The position numbers and the translations under genes were made by a program. Below are positions 7,813 through 62,263 of a stretch of 64,000 bases of DNA, in pieces. Source of the stretch: Lentisphaera profundi. GTDB lineage: Bacteria; Verrucomicrobiota; Lentisphaeria; Lentisphaerales; Lentisphaeraceae. The notes beneath the pieces were generated by a model that was given only the letters and a program-made list of their open reading frames with translations, did not search any database and was not told where the DNA came from. Each line of letters starts with the position of its first letter. Position 1 is the first letter of the stretch. Location of the stretch: contig NZ_CP117811.1 of NCBI RefSeq assembly GCF_028728065.1, positions 1,922,001 through 1,986,000 on the forward strand, in the 5' to 3' direction.

Positions 7813-8664
7813 TTATTTTATAGTGTCTATCCATTCACTAAAATCTTTGAACTGGCCACTGGCTTGCCACGCGGCTCCTGCATAATAAGTGAAGCCTTCA
7901 CCCTTTTTTATTTTCGCTGTTAGTAGGTAATGATCATGGGCTTCTAAATGTTTGACTTCTTGATCTTTTACCTGAATCGCTGAATAAATCACTTGTTTTT
8001 TATCCACGACTTCGCTATAGGCATAAGCATTCGCTAGTTTTGCGGATTCCGCAGCTTTTTTATGCGATTTCCGCAAACCTGCCGCCACCGTAATTTCGTC
8101 TGCACCAGTGATCTCGAAGGAGCACTCAATTTTATTAAAATTCGAACCACGCTCAAGTGTAATTCTTTTCGTTTCTTTTATGAGGCTTTTCCCAACTTTG
8201 AGTTCAGGGAAATCGAGCTCAAAAACAATGCGATTGGGGCCCTGCTCTAAGATCCTACTCTTTTCCCAATACTGAGTACAGTAGAGTTTGCCATCAGCTA
8301 AAAAGCCGAGTCCCCCTGCCCCTAAAGTTTTCCCCACTTTATAAAAATCAGCACCTTCTCCTCGGTCAGTATGATAATTTTCCCCTGCATCATTTCGTGC
8401 ATACCAAAGATCTATAATAGGAGTCTCAACTTTCTTGGACCAGATATCAATCCCACTCAAGACGGTGCCCGTTTTACCACATTCGGGCCCATACATGCGA
8501 AAGGCGACACGGTCATTTTCCCACGTAAAATCATCCTGACGTTCAGGAGCATGACGACCGTAGCAGAGTACATCATAATTTACATTTTTAGGTGTTTCAC
8601 AGACTAAAGAACTCTGGCAACTCGCTAATAGTCCTAGCCCAATGAGGCATACTAAATTTTTCAT
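7813..8664 (-). CDS. DUF4861 family lipoprotein
   Basis: A 283-residue protein with a lipoprotein signal (MKNLVCLIGLGLLASC). Its body carries the DUF4861 hallmarks: YGRHAPERQDDFTWENDRVA followed by FRMYGPE, then GIDIWSKKVETPIIDLWY. DUF4861 proteins sit in polysaccharide-degradation loci for pectin-like or alginate-like substrates; I know of no settled reaction to quote. It is the last gene of the uronate operon, 12 bases after the sulfatase, with AAGGA before the ATG. A carbohydrate-active enzyme acting outside the inner membrane is an inference. Confidence 0.8.
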   Translation of the reverse strand: MKNLVCLIGLGLLASCQSSLVCETPKNVNYDVLCYGRHAPERQDDFTWENDRVAFRMYGPECGKTGTVLSGIDIWSKKVETPIIDLWYARNDAGENYHTDRGEGADFYKVGKTLGAGGLGFLADGKLYCTQYWEKSRILEQGPNRIVFELDFPELKVGKSLIKETKRITLERGSNFNKIECSFEITGADEITVAAGLRKSHKKAAESAKLANAYAYSEVVDKKQVIYSAIQVKDQEVKHLEAHDHYLLTAKIKKGEGFTYYAGAAWQASGQFKDFSEWIDTIK

Positions 8665-8676
8665 ATCATTTTCCTT

Positions 8677-10035
8677 TTAATTAAATTTCATCCATTCACG
8701 TAAACGCATTTCTTTTTCTGAGTCTTTGAGATAATCATTTTTACGAAAGTCCGCGCTTTTGTGAGTCCTAATCCATTTATTCAGTGATTGATTCATTTCT
8801 TGAACGCGGCTTTTTGCGGACTCCGCAAGATTGACTTGCTCACCTGGATCAAGCTCCAAATCGAAGAGCCAAAATTTAGGTCCCTTTGAGAAATCGACCC
8901 GAATTAATTTATAATTTGACCTTCTCATTGCATAGATTTCTTGACTCGCCCAAAAGAGATCACGCTCAGTAAAGTCATTTTTTTGAATGATTGGACTCAA
9001 AATATCTTTGCCATCTAAGTCTAATACTTGCTCACCTGCCATGGCTAAAATCGAGGGTGCTATATCAAGAGAACTAATGGGATGATTCATCTTAATTCCT
9101 GAACTTAGTTTACCCGGCCATACGATAGCCGTGGGCACTCGAATACCACCTTCGGACAAACCCCCTTTCCCACCTCGTAAAACACCATTATCACTAAAAT
9201 TATTGTAGGCACCACCATTATCATTCAAAAACCACAAGAGAGTATTTTCCTCTAAATCCATATCCTTCAAAGCCTGACGAAGACGACCTACGTTATCATC
9301 CATTGACTTTGTCATAGCTGCTAAAATTTTGCGATTTGTATCTTTAATATCCTCGAAAACCTTCAAGTCTTGCTCTTTGGCATGCATCGGATAATGCACT
9401 GCACTAAAAGCGAGATAGATAAGAAATTCTTCCTCTTTATTTTTTGAGATAAAGGAGATCGCATCACTTGTTAAGGCATCGGACATATAGAAATCATCCG
9501 CTTCTTCTAAATACTCACCATTGCGCTCCATGCGGTAAGCCAGGGTAGATTTATCTGGCTCTTCCAAGGAAAAATAAGAACGATGTCCTGCTGCGAAACC
9601 ATAAAAGTAATCAAAGCCGCGCTGATTGGGATGATAACGTTTTTCATGTCCCAAATGCCACTTGCCAAAAGCGGCTGTTTTGTAACCCGCGTTTTTCATA
9701 TAATCCGCCAAAGTCTTTTGCGATGTGCGCAAACCAAATGAGTGATTATAATTGTGGGGAAGATTAAGGTGGAAGCCAAGTTTTTGCTGATACTTGCCCG
9801 TGATCAACCCCGCGCGACTTGGTGCACACATACAAGCGGTCACATAAGCATTAGAAAATTGAATACCTTCAGATACCATCTCATCTATATGAGGAGTTTT
9901 AAACTCTGTACTTCCCATATAACCAAAGTCTCCATAACCTGCGTCATCTGATAAAATAATAATGATATTTGGGCGCTCTCCTTTTGCGAAAAACGCAAAA
10001 GTAAAAGCTAGAACTATGTAAAATATATTTTTCAT
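8677..10035 (-). CDS. Secreted family S1 formylglycine sulfatase
   Basis: An arylsulfatase-type protein of 452 residues from ATG 10035, chosen because AGGTG lies five bases upstream and it gives a clean signal peptide (MKNIFYIVLAFTFAFFAKG); the in-frame ATG at 10074 adds 13 residues that spoil it. Metal-binding ILSDDAGYGDFGYMG and the activation motif CAPSR (in TACMCAPSRAGLITGKYQ) are present, so the Cys can become formylglycine. Later motifs include GKWHLGH and FLNDNGG. Within the operon it should strip sulfate from a uronate-containing glycan; the sulfate position cannot be read from sequence. Confidence 0.92.
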   Translation of the reverse strand: MKNIFYIVLAFTFAFFAKGERPNIIIILSDDAGYGDFGYMGSTEFKTPHIDEMVSEGIQFSNAYVTACMCAPSRAGLITGKYQQKLGFHLNLPHNYNHSFGLRTSQKTLADYMKNAGYKTAAFGKWHLGHEKRYHPNQRGFDYFYGFAAGHRSYFSLEEPDKSTLAYRMERNGEYLEEADDFYMSDALTSDAISFISKNKEEEFLIYLAFSAVHYPMHAKEQDLKVFEDIKDTNRKILAAMTKSMDDNVGRLRQALKDMDLEENTLLWFLNDNGGAYNNFSDNGVLRGGKGGLSEGGIRVPTAIVWPGKLSSGIKMNHPISSLDIAPSILAMAGEQVLDLDGKDILSPIIQKNDFTERDLFWASQEIYAMRRSNYKLIRVDFSKGPKFWLFDLELDPGEQVNLAESAKSRVQEMNQSLNKWIRTHKSADFRKNDYLKDSEKEMRLREWMKFN

Positions 10036-10101
10036 TTGATCACCTAAATTCATTACATTCATAAAACTCATCAAGTTATGGAAACATTAGTCATTGCTAA
10101 T

Positions 10102-10863
10102 CTATCTTGAGAGCCAACCGCCATCTACTGCAATTGTGTAACCTTGGAGGTATGAAGCCGCTTCAGAAGCTAAAAAGACACAAGCTCCTTGGAGATCCTC
10201 AACTTTTCCCCAACGTCCCGCTGGAATCCTTTCTAGAATTTGGCGATTGCGGTCGGGGTCAGCCTGTAAAGCAGCCGTATTATCTGTCGCCATATAACCC
10301 GGTGCAATTGCATTGACATTAATATTTTTATCCGCGAGTTCATTTGCCATAAGGCGAGTGAGACCTAGAACTGCAGATTTTGAAGCCGTGTAGGAAGGAA
10401 CGCGAATTCCACCTTGGAAGGAAAGCATGGAAGCCACATTAATAATTTTTCCTCCCTCGCCTTGTTTCACCATTTGGTTTGAAGCTGCCTGAGAAAGAAA
10501 AAAGAGCGTTTTTTGGTTGACGTTGATAACGTCATCCCAGTCTTTTTCAGTAAACTCTGCAATTGCGGCTCGGCGAATAATACCGGCATTATTTACCAAG
10601 ATATCTAAACGTCCTAATTCATTTACTGTACGTTCAATAATCTCGGGGATGCAATCTTGAGAACTTAGATCAGCAGTAATGATAATGGCTTTACGCCCTA
10701 GAGCTTCAATTTTTGCCTTACTTTCTTCCATTGATCCACGTGCCACTAAAGCGACATCTGCTCCCGCTTCTGCTAAACCAATTGCCATTGCCTGACCAAG
10801 TCCCTTTGACGCACCTGTAACGAGGGCCACTTTTCCATCCAGTTTAAATTTATCTAAGATCAT
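10102..10863 (-). CDS. kduD: 2-dehydro-3-deoxy-D-gluconate 5-dehydrogenase KduD (SDR family)
   Basis: A 253-residue short-chain dehydrogenase that interconverts 2,5-diketo-3-deoxygluconate and KDG with NAD(P)H. It has the nucleotide-binding TGASKGLGQAMA, NNAGI, the catalytic Ser in NVASMLSFQGG and YTASK. The ending VDGGWLSR matches KduD proteins. It starts nine bases after kduI and so follows it in the pathway as well as on the DNA. SDRs are easily confused, but the kduI partner makes the assignment firm. Confidence 0.92.
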   Translation of the reverse strand: MILDKFKLDGKVALVTGASKGLGQAMAIGLAEAGADVALVARGSMEESKAKIEALGRKAIIITADLSSQDCIPEIIERTVNELGRLDILVNNAGIIRRAAIAEFTEKDWDDVINVNQKTLFFLSQAASNQMVKQGEGGKIINVASMLSFQGGIRVPSYTASKSAVLGLTRLMANELADKNINVNAIAPGYMATDNTAALQADPDRNRQILERIPAGRWGKVEDLQGACVFLASEAASYLQGYTIAVDGGWLSR

Positions 10864-10872
10864 CTGCTGTTC

Positions 10873-11706
10873 CTATTTAAGTTCTTTAACTTCGATGTGG
10901 TCCATATCAGTAAACTCCTGATTTTCGCCACCCATGGCCCAGACAAAACTATAAGCACAAGTTCCCGCACCGGAATGCAATGACCAACTAGGAGAAACCA
11001 CTGATTCTTTATCACGAGTAATGATGTGACGCGTTTCCTCTGCACTACCCATCATGTGAAAGACTGCTGAATCTTCGTTTAGGTTAAAATAAGTGTAGAC
11101 TTCTGAACGACGTTCATGCGTGTGAGGTTTCATTGTATTCCATACTGACCCAGCTTCGAGGATTGTTACACCCATCACAAGTTGGCAACTCTTAATTCCG
11201 CCATTTGCATGTATGTATTGATAGATCGTACGATGATTTGAGTCTTCGAGTGAACCCATATTAACAGGGTTTGCATCTGCTTGAGTCGCCAGTGTGGTGG
11301 GATACTCCCTATGTGCTGGATAACTCACGAGGTGAAAGTAAGCTGGATCTTGTGGGTCCATACTTTCGAAAGTCACTTCTTTACTTCCGCGCCCAATATA
11401 AAGACAATCCACATTATTCATTTCATATTTCACTCCGTCTACAGTCACTAATCCCTGCTTACCAAGGTTAATAATTCCCGCTTCGCGACGTTGGCAAAAG
11501 TAGTCGCTTGCCAATTCTTTTCCCGCTTCAAGATTAAGAGGAGCTAACGTTGGCAAAAATCCACCGACTACCGTTCTATCCACTTCACAATAAACTAATT
11601 CAGATTGTCCAGACTGAAACATATTATCTAGCAAAAAAGTGCTGCGTAATTCTTCTGTACACATGCGTTTATATTCGTTGATACCAACTGTATATCTCGA
11701 TTTCAT
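10873..11706 (-). CDS. kduI: 5-dehydro-4-deoxy-D-glucuronate isomerase KduI
   Basis: A 277-residue cupin isomerase converting the unsaturated-uronate product DKI to DKII. The N-terminus MKSRYTVGINEYKRMCTEEL is family-typical. Metal ligands are visible in MKPHTHERRSEVYTYF (two His and Glu) and in the SWSLHSGAGTCAYSF segment (His). The length equals the E. coli enzyme. It is separated from the upstream GH88/105 gene by about 100 bases with two hairpins, and followed directly by kduD. Confidence 0.95.
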   Translation of the reverse strand: MKSRYTVGINEYKRMCTEELRSTFLLDNMFQSGQSELVYCEVDRTVVGGFLPTLAPLNLEAGKELASDYFCQRREAGIINLGKQGLVTVDGVKYEMNNVDCLYIGRGSKEVTFESMDPQDPAYFHLVSYPAHREYPTTLATQADANPVNMGSLEDSNHRTIYQYIHANGGIKSCQLVMGVTILEAGSVWNTMKPHTHERRSEVYTYFNLNEDSAVFHMMGSAEETRHIITRDKESVVSPSWSLHSGAGTCAYSFVWAMGGENQEFTDMDHIEVKELK

Positions 11707-11807: not shown

Positions 11808-13043
11808 CTACTCTCCTAAAACTTTATAAACTTCACTACCCGCAAGTAAGAAAGCACCGACACCGTAGACTTCCGTATCACCTGCTTGCACTTGTTTAGG
11901 ATCTTTACCTATGGCTTGAACCCAGCCGACTTTTCCATTTTTATCAACACTTCGCATCAGGGCATTAATGGATCTCTTCACTACTGGCAGATAAACTCTC
12001 TTATCGAGGTAGCCATTATTAATTCCCCAGGCAAGTGCGTAGCAAAAGAAACCCGTACCAGAAGTTTCGCCTCCTGGGAAACTTGTCGGGTCAAGTAAAC
12101 TCGCACGCCAGAAACCATCATCTTGCTGAATTGAACTGATTTTTGCTGACATTTCTTTAAAAAGCTGAATATATTGAGGACGAGTGGGATAATCCTTTGG
12201 CATCACTTCGAGAACGCGAACGAGTCCTCCCATCACCCAACCATTGCCACGACTCCAAAAGACTTTGGCACCATTAGCTTCTTTCTTTGACAAATATGAG
12301 GCATCTCGATAGAATAGCATTTCTTTTTTATCATAAAGAAGATCGTAAGCTTTCCACCATTTGCGATCCATGAAATCTAAGTACTTTTTGTTTCCGGTGA
12401 CATCGTATATTTTTGCAAAAGCCGGGGGTCCCATAAAAAGAGAATCACACCAAGACCATTCGCCACTCCAACAAACGGCTAAGTGATCCGTCATGTCGAC
12501 ATCAAGGTTTTCATCTACCAGTGCAAGAAAAGCTTTATTTGTCTGGTCTAGATACTGATTCTTCTTATCAATTTTTGCGAGATCCGCATAAACTTGAATG
12601 ATGGTGTGATTATCTGCAAAACTAGTGGTCTTTTTTCCCGCATGTTCCATGATATCAATAATGTTTTTATCATTACTTTCTTGGAACTTAGCATACTCAC
12701 TACGGTACCATTGTAAATCGTGCTTATCTCCGGGAGTCTGATCACCTATAGTCCAGTCCAACCCTTCGCCAACACTGCGAAGCTGCTTGAGTAATTCGGG
12801 ATTTTGTGAAACCTTATAGAGTTCCATACTTCCCGCAAACCAAGTCGCATTGGTCCAATCCCAGTCAGCTCTTTGACCTCCTTTTGTTAAACTCCGATTT
12901 TCCCACATCCAATCATGAGATTTTTGCATGCTTTCAGCTAGCTCTTGCCTCATATCGTCATTAGTTTTTACTACTTTTTGAGCACAGGAGATGCTCACAA
13001 AAGTGATAAGTAGAAAGGATAGAATTTGATGTTTTTTCAACAT
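11808..13043 (-). CDS. Glycoside hydrolase family 88/105, unsaturated uronyl hydrolase
   Basis: A protein with an (alpha/alpha)6-barrel pattern. Recognisable blocks are DNHTIIQVYADL, WCDSLFMGPP, FWSRGNGWVMGG and GGETSGTGFFCYALAWG. These enzymes hydrate the double bond left at the non-reducing end by polysaccharide lyases and release DKI, the KduI substrate. Start 13043 is preferred over the ATG at 13055 because GAGG lies six bases upstream and the signal (MLKKHQILSFLLITFVSISCAQ, possible lipobox) begins cleanly. Family 105 seems likelier than 88; the glycan is not determined. Confidence 0.9.
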   Translation of the reverse strand: MLKKHQILSFLLITFVSISCAQKVVKTNDDMRQELAESMQKSHDWMWENRSLTKGGQRADWDWTNATWFAGSMELYKVSQNPELLKQLRSVGEGLDWTIGDQTPGDKHDLQWYRSEYAKFQESNDKNIIDIMEHAGKKTTSFADNHTIIQVYADLAKIDKKNQYLDQTNKAFLALVDENLDVDMTDHLAVCWSGEWSWCDSLFMGPPAFAKIYDVTGNKKYLDFMDRKWWKAYDLLYDKKEMLFYRDASYLSKKEANGAKVFWSRGNGWVMGGLVRVLEVMPKDYPTRPQYIQLFKEMSAKISSIQQDDGFWRASLLDPTSFPGGETSGTGFFCYALAWGINNGYLDKRVYLPVVKRSINALMRSVDKNGKVGWVQAIGKDPKQVQAGDTEVYGVGAFLLAGSEVYKVLGE

Positions 13044-13054
13044 AAAGAACCTCA

Positions 13055-14389
13055 TTAATTAAATTGACCAAAGACTTTAGGAAGCCATAGGGATAAAGTT
13101 GGGAAAAAAGTAATAAACAAAAGAGACACCACCATAGCAAGGAAAAAAGGAATCATCGGACGAGTGACTTTTGAAATGCTACTTTTTCCTACTCCACAAC
13201 CGACAAACAAGCAAGTCCCTACTGGTGGAGTACAAAGGCCTATACTTAAATTGGCAACCATAATAATCCCAAAATGAATGGGAATCCAAGTACTTGCTGG
13301 CACTCCCATTAGTTCCGCATTACCGCTAATTTTAATAAAGACAGGGAGTAAAATTGGAGTGAAAATGAGTACGGCGGGAGTCATATCCATGAAAGTCCCC
13401 ACTACTAATAAAAGTAAATTAATAATAATAAATAAAACCCAAGGATTATCTGAAACTCCCAACAAGGCTTTGCTCACATTTTGTGGAATTTCTTGATAAG
13501 CCATAAGCCAAGACATACCCATTGAAGCACCCACTAAAAGCATAACTACTGCAGTGGTGATTCCCGAATCACGAAGTATTCCGGGAAGCTCCTTTAGCTT
13601 CACTTCTTTGTACATAACAACAGCCTGAATCAAAGCATAGACCACTGCAATAGCAGCCGCTTCGGTCGCAGTAAAAAAACCACTGAGAATCCCACCCAAA
13701 ACTATTACAATAAGCATTAAGCTCATAAAGGCTTCTCGAAAGGCTTTAAAGACTTGTGCTAAAGTCGCGCGTTCGCCCCCTGCATAGCCACGTTTTTTTG
13801 CGATAAACCCTGCTGTTAACATCAAACACAGACCACAAATAATCCCTGGAATTACCCCTGCTAGAAACATTGCTCCTACAGACACACCACCAGATACTAA
13901 ACAATAAACAATCATTATATTACTCGGAGGAATCATCATGCCCGTAGTTGCTGCAGTCGTAGTCAAGGCCACTGAATACTCACGGTCATAGCCTTTCTCT
14001 TCCATAGAGGGAATCATAAAGCCTCCGATGGAGGATACCGCTGCTACTGCTGAACCAGAAATAGCTCCAAAAAACATACAGGAAATAACGTTGACATAAG
14101 CTAAGCCACCCGGGAGGGCACCTACTAAAGTTGCGGCAAAATTAATTAAACGTCTAGCGATACCTCCTCGACCCATCAAGTTACCCGCTAAAATAAAGAA
14201 CGGAATAGCAAGCAAGGCAAAGCTATTAACTCCTGATGCCATGCGAAAAGAGACGATCGTTTCGGCAGGCATTCCTCCTAAATAAGCTAAGGTCGCAAAG
14301 CTAGCTAGCGCAATCGATACGGCTACAGGAACATTACTAATTAAAAGAACGCCAAAAACTGCGATGAGAATAAGGATAGAAGTATCCAT
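13055..14389 (-). CDS. dctM: TRAP transporter large permease, DctM
   Basis: A 444-residue inner-membrane protein with about a dozen hydrophobic segments. It has the DctM-like LAIPFFILAGNLMGRGGIAR block near residue 57, AAVSSIGGFMIPSMEEKGYD, the PPSN turn (GMMIPPSNIMIVY) and a second GLCTPPVGTCLFVGCGV repeat. It is the ion-coupled channel of a TRAP carboxylate importer. It is joined to dctQ by TAATG and overlaps or abuts the GH88/105 gene, so it belongs to the same transcript. Confidence 0.95.
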   Translation of the reverse strand: MDTSILILIAVFGVLLISNVPVAVSIALASFATLAYLGGMPAETIVSFRMASGVNSFALLAIPFFILAGNLMGRGGIARRLINFAATLVGALPGGLAYVNVISCMFFGAISGSAVAAVSSIGGFMIPSMEEKGYDREYSVALTTTAATTGMMIPPSNIMIVYCLVSGGVSVGAMFLAGVIPGIICGLCLMLTAGFIAKKRGYAGGERATLAQVFKAFREAFMSLMLIVIVLGGILSGFFTATEAAAIAVVYALIQAVVMYKEVKLKELPGILRDSGITTAVVMLLVGASMGMSWLMAYQEIPQNVSKALLGVSDNPWVLFIIINLLLLVVGTFMDMTPAVLIFTPILLPVFIKISGNAELMGVPASTWIPIHFGIIMVANLSIGLCTPPVGTCLFVGCGVGKSSISKVTRPMIPFFLAMVVSLLFITFFPTLSLWLPKVFGQFN

Positions 14390-14886
14390 TACTGAGCCTC
14401 CTTCATTGCATTGACCTTTTCTAGAATAGTCTCCAATGCGACTAAGCTGATGAATAAACCGGATATCGGCAATGCGGTATAGATGTAAGCCATTGGAATT
14501 CCCATTGCGGAAGACAATTGATCAAAACGCAGTGTCAGTGTCACTAATTTTGCTCCTCCGAATAGAAGTAAATATGAACCAAAAAAAGCAATGCATATTT
14601 GCCCAAATATATCGAGCCACAATCGTTTATTCCCCTTTAGTTTGCCTGCAAAATAATCGATACCCAAGTGAGCATTTTTTGCAAAAGCTAAACTTCCGCC
14701 AAGCAAAGTTATCCACACTAATAAAAACTGTGCTAATTCGGAGCAAATTGCCGTTCCACCTAAATTTAATGATCTCGCAAGAATTTGATATAAGACCACA
14801 ATTACAAGCATTGCCATCATCGTTATAAGTAAGAGATCCAAAACCTTCATCAGCCCATCTTTACATGTTTTTAGTTTACTTAACAT
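14389..14886 (-). CDS. dctQ: TRAP transporter small permease, DctQ
   Basis: A 165-residue protein with four hydrophobic helices (about residues 18-38, 51-67, 88-108 and 131-151) and the DctQ signature region TAICSELAQFLLVWITLLGG followed by KNAHLGIDYF. It overlaps dctP by 11 bases and dctM by one base. It partners DctM in the membrane. Confidence 0.93.
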   Translation of the reverse strand: MLSKLKTCKDGLMKVLDLLLITMMAMLVIVVLYQILARSLNLGGTAICSELAQFLLVWITLLGGSLAFAKNAHLGIDYFAGKLKGNKRLWLDIFGQICIAFFGSYLLLFGGAKLVTLTLRFDQLSSAMGIPMAYIYTALPISGLFISLVALETILEKVNAMKEAQ

Positions 14887-15862
14887 GAGATGACTCCATG
14901 ACTTTGATCTTCTTTAAATGATTTTTAATTATAGGGTTTTTCACTTGCGATAAAAGTTCCTTACAATTTTCAGAAAAGGGCTCTTTTTGAGGGTATAAAA
15001 CTGTCACCCCATATTTTTTCACTTGTTCCAAGGCCCTTGTGGTTTCTTCTTGCCATAACTTACGTTGTAGCTCTCGTGATTCATCTGCCGCTTGTTGCAC
15101 GATCTCTTGTTCTTCCACAGTGAGTTTTTCCCAATTGACCTGACTCATCACCAGCATATCTGGAATACGCGAATGTTCATTGAGAGAATAAAACTTACAG
15201 ACTTCATAATGTCGTGAAGTGACAAATGAAGGCGGATTATTTTCTCCCCCCACGACAACTCGCTGTTGAAGTGCTGAATATAATTCACCATAGGGAATAG
15301 ACTGAGCCTGTGCTCCTAGAGCATTAATTGCATCTTGGCAATTGCGACTGCCCATCACTCGAATTTTCATCCCTTCCAGATCATCGGGACTTGTGACCAT
15401 TTTATCTAAAGTATAAAAGCTTCGCGCACCAGCATCATAATAAGTTAAACCACGAAGCCCTACTCTTTTACCTGCCTGCAGTAAGTCACTGCCACTTTCA
15501 CTCTCAAGAAACCCCCAGTAATGCTCACTATTTTTAAATACATAGGGCAAGGTGAAAATCCCGATTTCTTCAACGAAGTTCTCCATTGCTGCGGCAGAAA
15601 CTTTGGTCATATCTATTCCACCAAGTTGAACCAAAGCCACGGTATCCGACTCTTTACCTAATTGGCCACCTGCAAAAATTTTCAGTTCCATTTTACCTTC
15701 TGATTTAAGGGCAATCGTTTCAGCCATGTGCAACATCGCTTTATGGACGACATGATTCTCTGGTAAGGTATGCGCTAAACGCAAAACTTTTTTCTTCGAG
15801 CTTAACTGATTATCGCAGCCTATCAGTAATAAAGCAAAAATGATCACTCTTATGTAGCTCAT
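14876..15862 (-). CDS. dctP: TRAP transporter solute-binding lipoprotein, DctP family
   Basis: A 328-residue extracytoplasmic binding protein with a lipoprotein signal (MSYIRVIIFALLLIGC). Family features are RLAHTLPENHVVHKAM, the FAGGQLGKE turn, LEGMKIRVMGSRNCQDAI (the Arg binds the ligand carboxylate in this family) and SIPYGELYSALQQRVV. Linkage to kduI/kduD and a uronyl hydrolase suggests a uronate or unsaturated oligouronate ligand, which is inference. It is the first gene after the promoter and operator at 15977-16038. Confidence 0.93.
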   Translation of the reverse strand: MSYIRVIIFALLLIGCDNQLSSKKKVLRLAHTLPENHVVHKAMLHMAETIALKSEGKMELKIFAGGQLGKESDTVALVQLGGIDMTKVSAAAMENFVEEIGIFTLPYVFKNSEHYWGFLESESGSDLLQAGKRVGLRGLTYYDAGARSFYTLDKMVTSPDDLEGMKIRVMGSRNCQDAINALGAQAQSIPYGELYSALQQRVVVGGENNPPSFVTSRHYEVCKFYSLNEHSRIPDMLVMSQVNWEKLTVEEQEIVQQAADESRELQRKLWQEETTRALEQVKKYGVTVLYPQKEPFSENCKELLSQVKNPIIKNHLKKIKVMESSHVK

Positions 15863-15976: not shown

Positions 15977-16012
15977 AATATTAAAAATGCCATCGTTGGC
16001 ATTTTTAATATT
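15977..16012. promoter_or_regulatory. Perfect 16-bp inverted repeat, probable repressor operator
   Basis: Left arm aatattaaaaatgcca (15977-15992), 4-base centre tcgt, right arm tggcatttttaatatt (15997-16012): all 16 positions pair. It overlaps the last three bases of the -10 box of the minus-strand promoter and covers the predicted start site, the classic position for a repressor. The central CG step resembles LacI-family operators, but a GntR-type regulator is also possible. No regulator gene lies next to it. It is unlikely to be a terminator because it sits at the 5' end of the operon. Confidence 0.75.
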
Positions 16013-16038
16013 ATAATGATAGAGTCACATAAAGTCAA
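16010..16038 (-). promoter_or_regulatory. Sigma-70 type promoter of the uronate (dctP-kdu) operon
   Basis: Read on the minus strand: TTGACT at 16038-16033, a 17-base spacer, and TATAAT at 16015-16010. The -35 differs from consensus only in the last base and the -10 is perfect. Transcription would begin near 16003 and leave a leader of about 140 bases before dctP. Confidence 0.75.
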
Positions 16039-16295: not shown

Positions 16296-17237
16296 TTGAA
16301 AACGACAAATAGATTCAAACCAGGTAGCTCTTCTTATCTCTTTATTTTAGCTATTTGTTGCACGGCAGCATGGGGATCCGCCTTTCCTACTATTCGTTTA
16401 GCTAGGCTAGAATTACCCGATACATCTCTCCGCCACCTTTGGGCCTTTGCAGGAATGCGCTTTACACTTGCAGGAATCATTATCCTTTATCTTTACCGAC
16501 ATCGTGTTCAATGGTCTAAATTCAAAGAAAATTTCCCCTTGATGTTTATGGGGATCTTTTTCCAAATCGCGCTTCACTATGCTCTATTTTACGCGAGTTT
16601 TCGCCATGCTCCCGCTTATTTAATTGCTATTGCCGCAAGTACAGGAACCCTGTGGTGGACAATCATCACCCCCTTGGTTGATAAGAGTGAGAAATTTCAT
16701 CTTCGACAAATTCTTTTACTCAGCATCGGAATCATGGGTGTCGCATTAGCCACATATAAAGAAGGCTTCTCTTTTCAATCTCTCCTACAAGGAGAACTTT
16801 CTGGCCTTTTATTAACCACATTGGCCACACTAAGTAGCACCATTGGCTTATTAATTATCCGACCTTTAAAAAAACGAGGCGTTAATCCAAACTTCTATAA
16901 TGGTAGCTCACTCTTTTTTGGTGGATTAGTTCTTCTTGCACTAAGTTTCCCTGCTTTGATAGAAATTATTTCCAACATGAATCAAAAACTTTTTCTACTC
17001 ACCATTTACTTAGCCTGTGTCTCGGCTTTTGGTTTTAATTTGTGGTTTCATCTCATCACAATTTATCAAGTATCGCGCCTCGCTTCATACAGGCTACTCA
17101 TTAGCTTTTTTGGCGTAAGCGAATCCCTTATCTTTCTTCCAGAAGAAAAGCCAGGCCCCTTCCTTATCATGGGTGGGATATTGATTTTTCTATCTATTTA
17201 CCTTATGGAAAAACAGAGAAATATCCTAAGTCATTAA
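16296..17237 (+). CDS. EamA/DMT family transporter
   Basis: A 313-residue drug/metabolite transporter-type membrane protein with about ten helices in two EamA repeats; the first starts at FILAICCTAAWGSAFPTIRL. The start is TTG at 16296, supported by AAAGGT five bases upstream; no nearby ATG would keep the first helix. It is probably a single gene, between the TIR element and a strong terminator. The substrate cannot be predicted. Confidence 0.85.
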   Translation: MKTTNRFKPGSSSYLFILAICCTAAWGSAFPTIRLARLELPDTSLRHLWAFAGMRFTLAGIIILYLYRHRVQWSKFKENFPLMFMGIFFQIALHYALFYASFRHAPAYLIAIAASTGTLWWTIITPLVDKSEKFHLRQILLLSIGIMGVALATYKEGFSFQSLLQGELSGLLLTTLATLSSTIGLLIIRPLKKRGVNPNFYNGSSLFFGGLVLLALSFPALIEIISNMNQKLFLLTIYLACVSAFGFNLWFHLITIYQVSRLASYRLLISFFGVSESLIFLPEEKPGPFLIMGGILIFLSIYLMEKQRNILSH

Positions 17238-17245
17238 AGCTATAC

Positions 17246-17274
17246 AAAAAAAGCGCCCGAAGGCGCTTTTTTTT
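17246..17274. terminator. Bidirectional intrinsic terminator
   Basis: aagcgcc-cgaa-ggcgctt stem (17251-17268), flanked by a run of A on the left and of T on the right. It can therefore end both the EamA transcript (+) and the convergent pyruvate carboxylase transcript (-). Confidence 0.9.
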
Positions 17275-61848: not shown

Positions 61849-61879
61849 AAAGCACTTACATTTATGTAAGTGCTTTTTT
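61849..61879 (+). terminator. Terminator after tRNA-Thr copy 1
   Basis: aaagcacttaca (61849-61860), loop ttta, tgtaagtgcttt (61865-61876), then T. Confidence 0.9.
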
Positions 61880-62232: not shown

Positions 62233-62263
62233 AAAGCACTTACATTCATGTAAGTGCTTTTTT
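62233..62263 (+). terminator. Terminator after tRNA-Thr copy 2
   Basis: aaagcacttaca (62233-62244), loop ttca, tgtaagtgcttt (62249-62260), then T. Confidence 0.9.

Follow-up and report, generated by a model that had tools for sequence, protein, structure and literature searches.

Enterobacterial genes of the kdu and uxa/uxu types are controlled by KdgR, a member of the IclR family, and by UxuR and ExuR of the GntR family. The LacI-family uronate regulators of Bacteroides, predicted by PMC3878776, are called KdgR (BT0487), UxaR (BT0824) and UxuR (BT1434) in PMC4052901. Passages of PMC4052901 describe LacI operators as even, CG-centred palindromes that mostly lie 30-140 bp before the start codon and serve local regulation. 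According to recognition rules set out in passages of PMC2978694, R20 goes with G at NT-6, a hydrophobic residue 54 goes with a central CG, and residues 15 and 16 correspond to the NT-5/NT-4 pair. Here, we analysed a 64,000-nucleotide stretch of the Lentisphaera profundi genome (the window), in which a predicted promoter of uptake and uronate genes runs into a palindrome with a core of this layout. We propose, at a probability of roughly 0.88, that a local LacI-family factor, most likely the protein encoded at C1:2093176-2094177, uses the palindrome as its operator and would repress the promoter as part of one uronate/sulfated-glycan regulon.

Results

The first-pass annotation had described a near-consensus minus-strand promoter running into a 36-base inverted repeat, and the sequence bears this out (Table 1). 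TTGACT (16038-16033), a spacer of 17 bases and TATAAT (16015-16010) lead into the palindrome, which shares three bases with the end of the -10 hexamer. Its arms (15977-15992 and 15997-16012) are complementary at 16 of 16 positions and flank a four-base centre, TCGT on the plus strand, that is itself non-palindromic. If transcription begins, as assumed, 7 nt past the -10 hexamer, the predicted start falls at about 16003, inside the palindrome. Although TTGACT-17-TATAAT scores 11 of 12 consensus matches, the promoter scan alone is little proof, because it returned three promoter-like sites in comparison with 2.5 expected from shuffles. Conservation in Lentisphaera marina (below) is the better evidence for this predicted promoter, and the scan was not used as stand-alone evidence.

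Table 1. Features of the predicted operator-promoter region, the downstream operon and further exact cores in the genome. Positions without a prefix refer to the window.
Feature	Position	Strand	Evidence or context
-35 hexamer TTGACT	16033..16038	-	promoter scan; identical in L. marina
-10 hexamer TATAAT	16010..16015	-	promoter scan; retained in L. marina alignment
36-base inverted repeat, 16-bp arms, 4-base centre	15977..16012	no strand	sequence and shuffles
Proposed LacI-family binding site, core TGCCATCGTTGGCA (minus strand TGCCAACGATGGCA)	15988..16001	no strand	
dctP, TRAP solute-binding protein, first gene of the operon	14876..15862	-	PF03480
dctQ	14389..14886	-	PF04290
dctM	13055..14389	-	PF06808
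Unsaturated uronyl hydrolase, GH88/GH105 family	11808..13055	-	PF07470
kduI, 5-dehydro-4-deoxy-D-glucuronate isomerase	10873..11706	-	PF04962; NF002091 above cut-off
kduD, 2-dehydro-3-deoxy-D-gluconate 5-dehydrogenase	10102..10863	-	TIGR01832 above cut-off
Sulfatase	8677..10074	-	PF00884
DUF4861 protein	7813..8664	-	PF16153; 12 bases after sulfatase
Exact core	C1:2093108		between LacI gene (C1:2093176-2094177) and chondroitin-lyase-like PL8 gene
Exact core	C2:1843218		before prepilin-like genes downstream of sulfatase-PL8 operon
Exact core	C2:1498665 (20-base copy: L016:9657-9688, G000:C2:1498662)		between phosphoglucomutase-type and DUF1552 genes

Arms of this length are far beyond chance. 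Base composition predicts 1.4e-4 occurrences of arms of at least 16 in the window, and arms never exceeded 11 in 40 dinucleotide shuffles of it. One could suppose a chance palindrome or a mobile repeat with no regulatory role, since hairpins are frequent in AT-rich intergenic regions and a census of the window (arms of at least 10, loop 3-8) found six distinct places, five of them other than this one. The low expectation stands against that idea, as do cross-species conservation inside a less conserved leader and the recurrence of this core at promoters that belong to one pathway without being homologous, and we give it next to no weight. Elsewhere in the window, two near-identical 28-base hairpins, AAAGCACTTACAT...ATGTAAGTGCTTT, lie 384 bases apart (61849-61876 and 62233-62260) and may be paired sites or a repeat element. 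A perfect A-run/GC-stem/T-run hairpin between convergent EamA and pyruvate-carboxylase-like genes (17246-17273) is probably a bidirectional terminator.

The core of the palindrome, TGCCAACGATGGCA on the minus strand, is an even palindrome with a central CG, as LacI operators are. Its general form, TGCCA-WCGW-TGGCA, matches once in the 64-kb window and fits the published LacI layout in its even symmetry, its central CG and its G at position 6. Downstream, Pfam and NCBIfam profiles confirm the dctPQM-GH105-kduI-kduD-sulfatase operon named at first pass and bring in a DUF4861 gene that had gone unnamed; judged by its spacing, this is the probable last gene of the operon. Among solved structures, the best match to the GH88/GH105-family hydrolase is 4ce7, an unsaturated 3S-rhamnoglycuronyl hydrolase. 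On the other side, an EamA transporter gene (16296-17237, plus strand) runs divergently, an arrangement shared by the dctP region of L. marina (L083:8791-9741).

L. marina (L083) has the same operon start, with a DctP that is 79% identical. Its leader keeps the -35 hexamer, the spacing, the -10 hexamer and all 24 central bases of the palindrome, within an aligned leader that is identical at 140 of 192 positions overall; the outer arms differ by one base per side, with pairing intact. Loss of the palindrome from orthologous operons had been named beforehand as evidence that would count against a regulatory role, and in L. marina, the one close ortholog at hand, the palindrome is present. Neither palindrome nor core was found at any of 11 more distant dctP loci (L041-L051, below 50% identity). 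Among the 37 loci L084-L120, which hold dctP homologs of other organisms, a single TGCCA core centred on CG appeared, in L117.

The paired change in the outer arms, which leaves them complementary in both species, would also suit an inverted repeat that acts as RNA, be it a 5'-terminal stem-loop, an attenuator or a terminator in the dctP leader. Consistent with such a role, the predicted fold of the leader contains the entire 16-bp stem and is better than that of its shuffles (z -3.26), and a T-run follows the GC stem. However, scans returned no terminator-like sites and no Rfam matches at E up to 1, and roughly half of the left arm would be left untranscribed, given the expected start. Moreover, the PL8, prepilin and LacI sites have the core without outer pairing, and cores track LacI genes. 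We consider it highly improbable that the repeat is an RNA element instead of an operator. A secondary RNA role of the hairpin beside the operator is possible: an operator by itself does not account for the coupled change of the arms, which might reflect an mRNA hairpin at the 5' end or repair that uses the opposite arm as template.

The first-pass annotation had suggested searching for the motif near other uronate or lyase genes and near LacI or GntR genes. This search was positive in the L. profundi genome and in relatives, where the motif adjoins LacI genes and precedes lyase, sulfatase and uronate genes. In the whole L. profundi genome, AAATGCCA-N4-TGGCATTT is found at two exact places and the core TGCCANCGNTGGCA in four exact copies, the window site included. 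A one-mismatch core lies at C2:1847931, at the start of the sulfatase-PL8 operon; the solved structure nearest to the PL8 enzyme of this operon is that of chondroitin ABC lyase I. A single L. marina contig has three exact sites in a span of 13 kb, one ahead of dctP, one ahead of prepilin-like genes and one between LacI and sulfatase-PL8. The prepilin-like genes (L017:4405-6205 and L171:5788-7642) lie downstream of the sulfatase-PL8 operon and have an exact core at their start in both Lentisphaera genomes. The site at C2:1498665 is the genome's second exact 20-base copy, with outer arms that are partly complementary. It has no uronate gene nearby (its neighbours are DUF1552, PSD/PSCyt-type and phosphoglucomutase-type genes) and no matching exact core elsewhere in L. 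marina. At the kdgK loci of L. profundi (L273 and L275), no core was found within one mismatch. Across the sites, the common element is a core of 14-20 bases; the outer AT arms vary from site to site.

Looser patterns were tried and set aside. With up to three mismatches, AAATGCCA-N4-TGGCATTT matched 51 places in the L. profundi genome versus 27 for a reversed control, and ATGCCANCGNTGGCAT with two mismatches matched 24 versus 38 for its control. Both are too loose to define a regulon, and we therefore relied on exact or one-mismatch cores only.

The most likely regulator in L. profundi is a LacI protein encoded outside the window (G000:C1:2093176-2094177). It carries a helix-turn-helix domain and a periplasmic-binding-like effector domain, with PF00356 and PF13377 above cut-off at L169:12674-13678, and among the seven LacI genes found with Pfam in this genome, it alone combines an I-R helix with a nearby core. 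I15, R16, R20 and L54 are invariant in all 12 aligned motif-linked regulators, whose identity to the L. profundi protein goes down to 26%. The core agrees with the rules given in passages of PMC2978694, having G at NT-6, a central CG and CC at NT-5/NT-4. Local regulation is suggested by a core within 160 bp of the regulator gene in 8 of these 12, a set selected partly by its sites.

The operator might instead belong to another uronate regulator, whether of the IclR type (KdgR), of the GntR type (UxuR/ExuR) or another LacI protein of L. profundi. Other bacteria do use IclR and GntR proteins to control their kdu and uxu genes, but the core has LacI geometry, and in other families as in the two Lentisphaera genomes, the gene adjoining the motif is of the LacI type. 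The search for regulator genes in L. profundi covered the LacI family, and its six further LacI genes have neither an I-R helix nor a nearby core. To our knowledge, the Lentisphaera half-site differs from KdgR and UxuR sites. Control by one of these other regulators seems improbable to us.

Beyond the Lentisphaera family, cores in the class immediately precede LacI genes that carry I/V15-R16 as recognition residues, and they also occur before uxaB-uxaA, kdgK-eda, Gfo/Idh and glucuronyl-esterase-like genes. Representative enzymes were assigned by NCBIfam or Pfam to tagaturonate reductase, the galactarate/altronate dehydratase family, glucuronate isomerase, KDPG aldolase and PfkB-type sugar kinase. 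A survey of 59 genomes gave 59 exact cores, of which 53 were examined and 6 left out (one of them in the regulator-bearing genome G043). In the 12 genomes with an I-R LacI, 25 of 30 examined cores lay at or just before gene starts of a pathway set, in contrast to 2 of 23 in the remaining genomes; these counts, like the 8 of 12 above, are not independent of the hypothesis, because the 12 regulators were gathered partly by their sites and the target genes were taken from the same loci. The pathway set comprised LacI, uxaB-uxaA(-uxaC), Gfo/Idh, glucuronyl-esterase-like, kdgK-eda, dctP, PL8 and sulfatase genes. Both exceptions are in G029, which was later found to own an I-R-type LacI too. Because the longest open frame served as reference, some gene matches start up to 38 bases before the core, and their true starts are probably downstream.

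For a follow-up, 197 genomes of the class were searched with a profile of the 12 regulators (themselves found partly through sites). This yielded 34 [IV]R LacI loci, from 33 new genomes and the previously seen G029, and 25 other LacI loci; an incomplete LacI of G147 (L342) was placed in neither group. Exact cores were present at 14 of the 34 [IV]R loci versus 0 of the 25 others. In nine of these 14 the core lies 25-81 bp before the LacI match, and most of the remaining cores precede a uxaB-uxaA or Gfo/Idh gene. Counting exact or one-mismatch cores up to 300 bp upstream, the comparison was 13 of 34 versus 0 of 25. At 15 of the 34 [IV]R loci, exact cores and upstream cores with one mismatch were both absent. 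As a control, 60 arrangements of the half-site were scored at the 34 loci: TGCCA gave 14 hits, compared with a mean of 0.10 for the 59 others.

A quick tree placed the 44 [IV]R LacIs of other families in one clade, whereas the three Lentisphaera-family LacIs (G000, G001 and G005) grouped with a clade of N16 LacIs. The Lentisphaera-family regulators are therefore not simple orthologs of the others, and this helix goes together with this motif in two lineages. A LacI clade with an S-[IM]-N-T helix (L343-L361), present in many of the same genomes, groups with the Lentisphaera-family regulators; no exact TGCCA core was found near these loci. A broader proposal would make the I/V15-R16 helix and TGCCA-WCGW-TGGCA a class-wide uronate switch, kept or arisen in two LacI lineages, with (I15, R16) to CC as a portable rule of the recognition code; in Lentisphaera, the operator would moreover have been lengthened to form an mRNA hairpin at the 5' end, with arms that covary. 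We hold this proposal to be rather unlikely.

Discussion

Judged by sequence, the palindrome is well supported as a predicted LacI operator; binding, repression rather than activation, the inducer and the polysaccharide are what we infer. In this form, the repressor-operator reading of the first-pass annotation, with its uronate-regulator motif, gains support, as the motif adjoins both LacI and uronate genes. A LacI dimer would bind TGCCA-WCGW-TGGCA across the -10 hexamer and the predicted start, keeping the dctPQM-GH105-kduI-kduD-sulfatase promoter off. With the operator centred near +9 relative to the assumed start, a dimer sitting there would obstruct polymerase, in a manner similar to lacO1. 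A uronate-derived metabolite, likely a product of uronate breakdown, would release the repressor. The same LacI protein may control the PL8-lyase and sulfatase operons, which would place the import of a sulfated polysaccharide that contains uronate in a single regulon with its degradation. The PL8 lyases suggest that this polysaccharide is chondroitin-like, and the regulon probably serves such a substrate, not free uronate alone.

For a little-studied group, this analysis puts forward an operator of uronate and sulfated-glycan catabolism together with its candidate regulator and targets. The motif can link DUF4861, DUF1846, Gfo/Idh and prepilin-like genes to the pathway in relatives. Moreover, with one recognition helix at two positions in the tree, these lineages lend themselves to testing the published rules of LacI recognition. 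Literature searches, with most subscription journals and RegPrecise outside their scope, gave no relevant match for the four exact core strings (the sole match concerned Bcl-xL), and in the literature searched we found no report of a LacI uronate regulon in Lentisphaera or Victivallis.

The predicted operator would be a further example of an ordinary, known kind of switch, in which a LacI-type site acts locally on uronate genes, and a regulator is now proposed for it. With enterobacterial KdgR, UxuR and ExuR, this regulator would share control of kdu and uxa/uxu type genes, but those proteins belong to other regulator families, whereas the motif-linked regulator here is of the LacI family. Bacteroides KdgR, UxaR and UxuR come closer, as LacI-family proteins of glucuronate and galacturonate catabolism that regulate locally through palindromic operators. 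They belong to another phylum, and the likeness drawn here is one of family and pathway; in the passages of PMC3878776 and PMC4052901 that bear on their targets, no PL8 lyases are listed. With LacI operators in general, as passages of PMC4052901 describe them, the Lentisphaera site shares an even palindrome, a CG centre and local regulation, and its specific marks are the half-site TGCCA and the helix residues I/V15-R16 that go with it.
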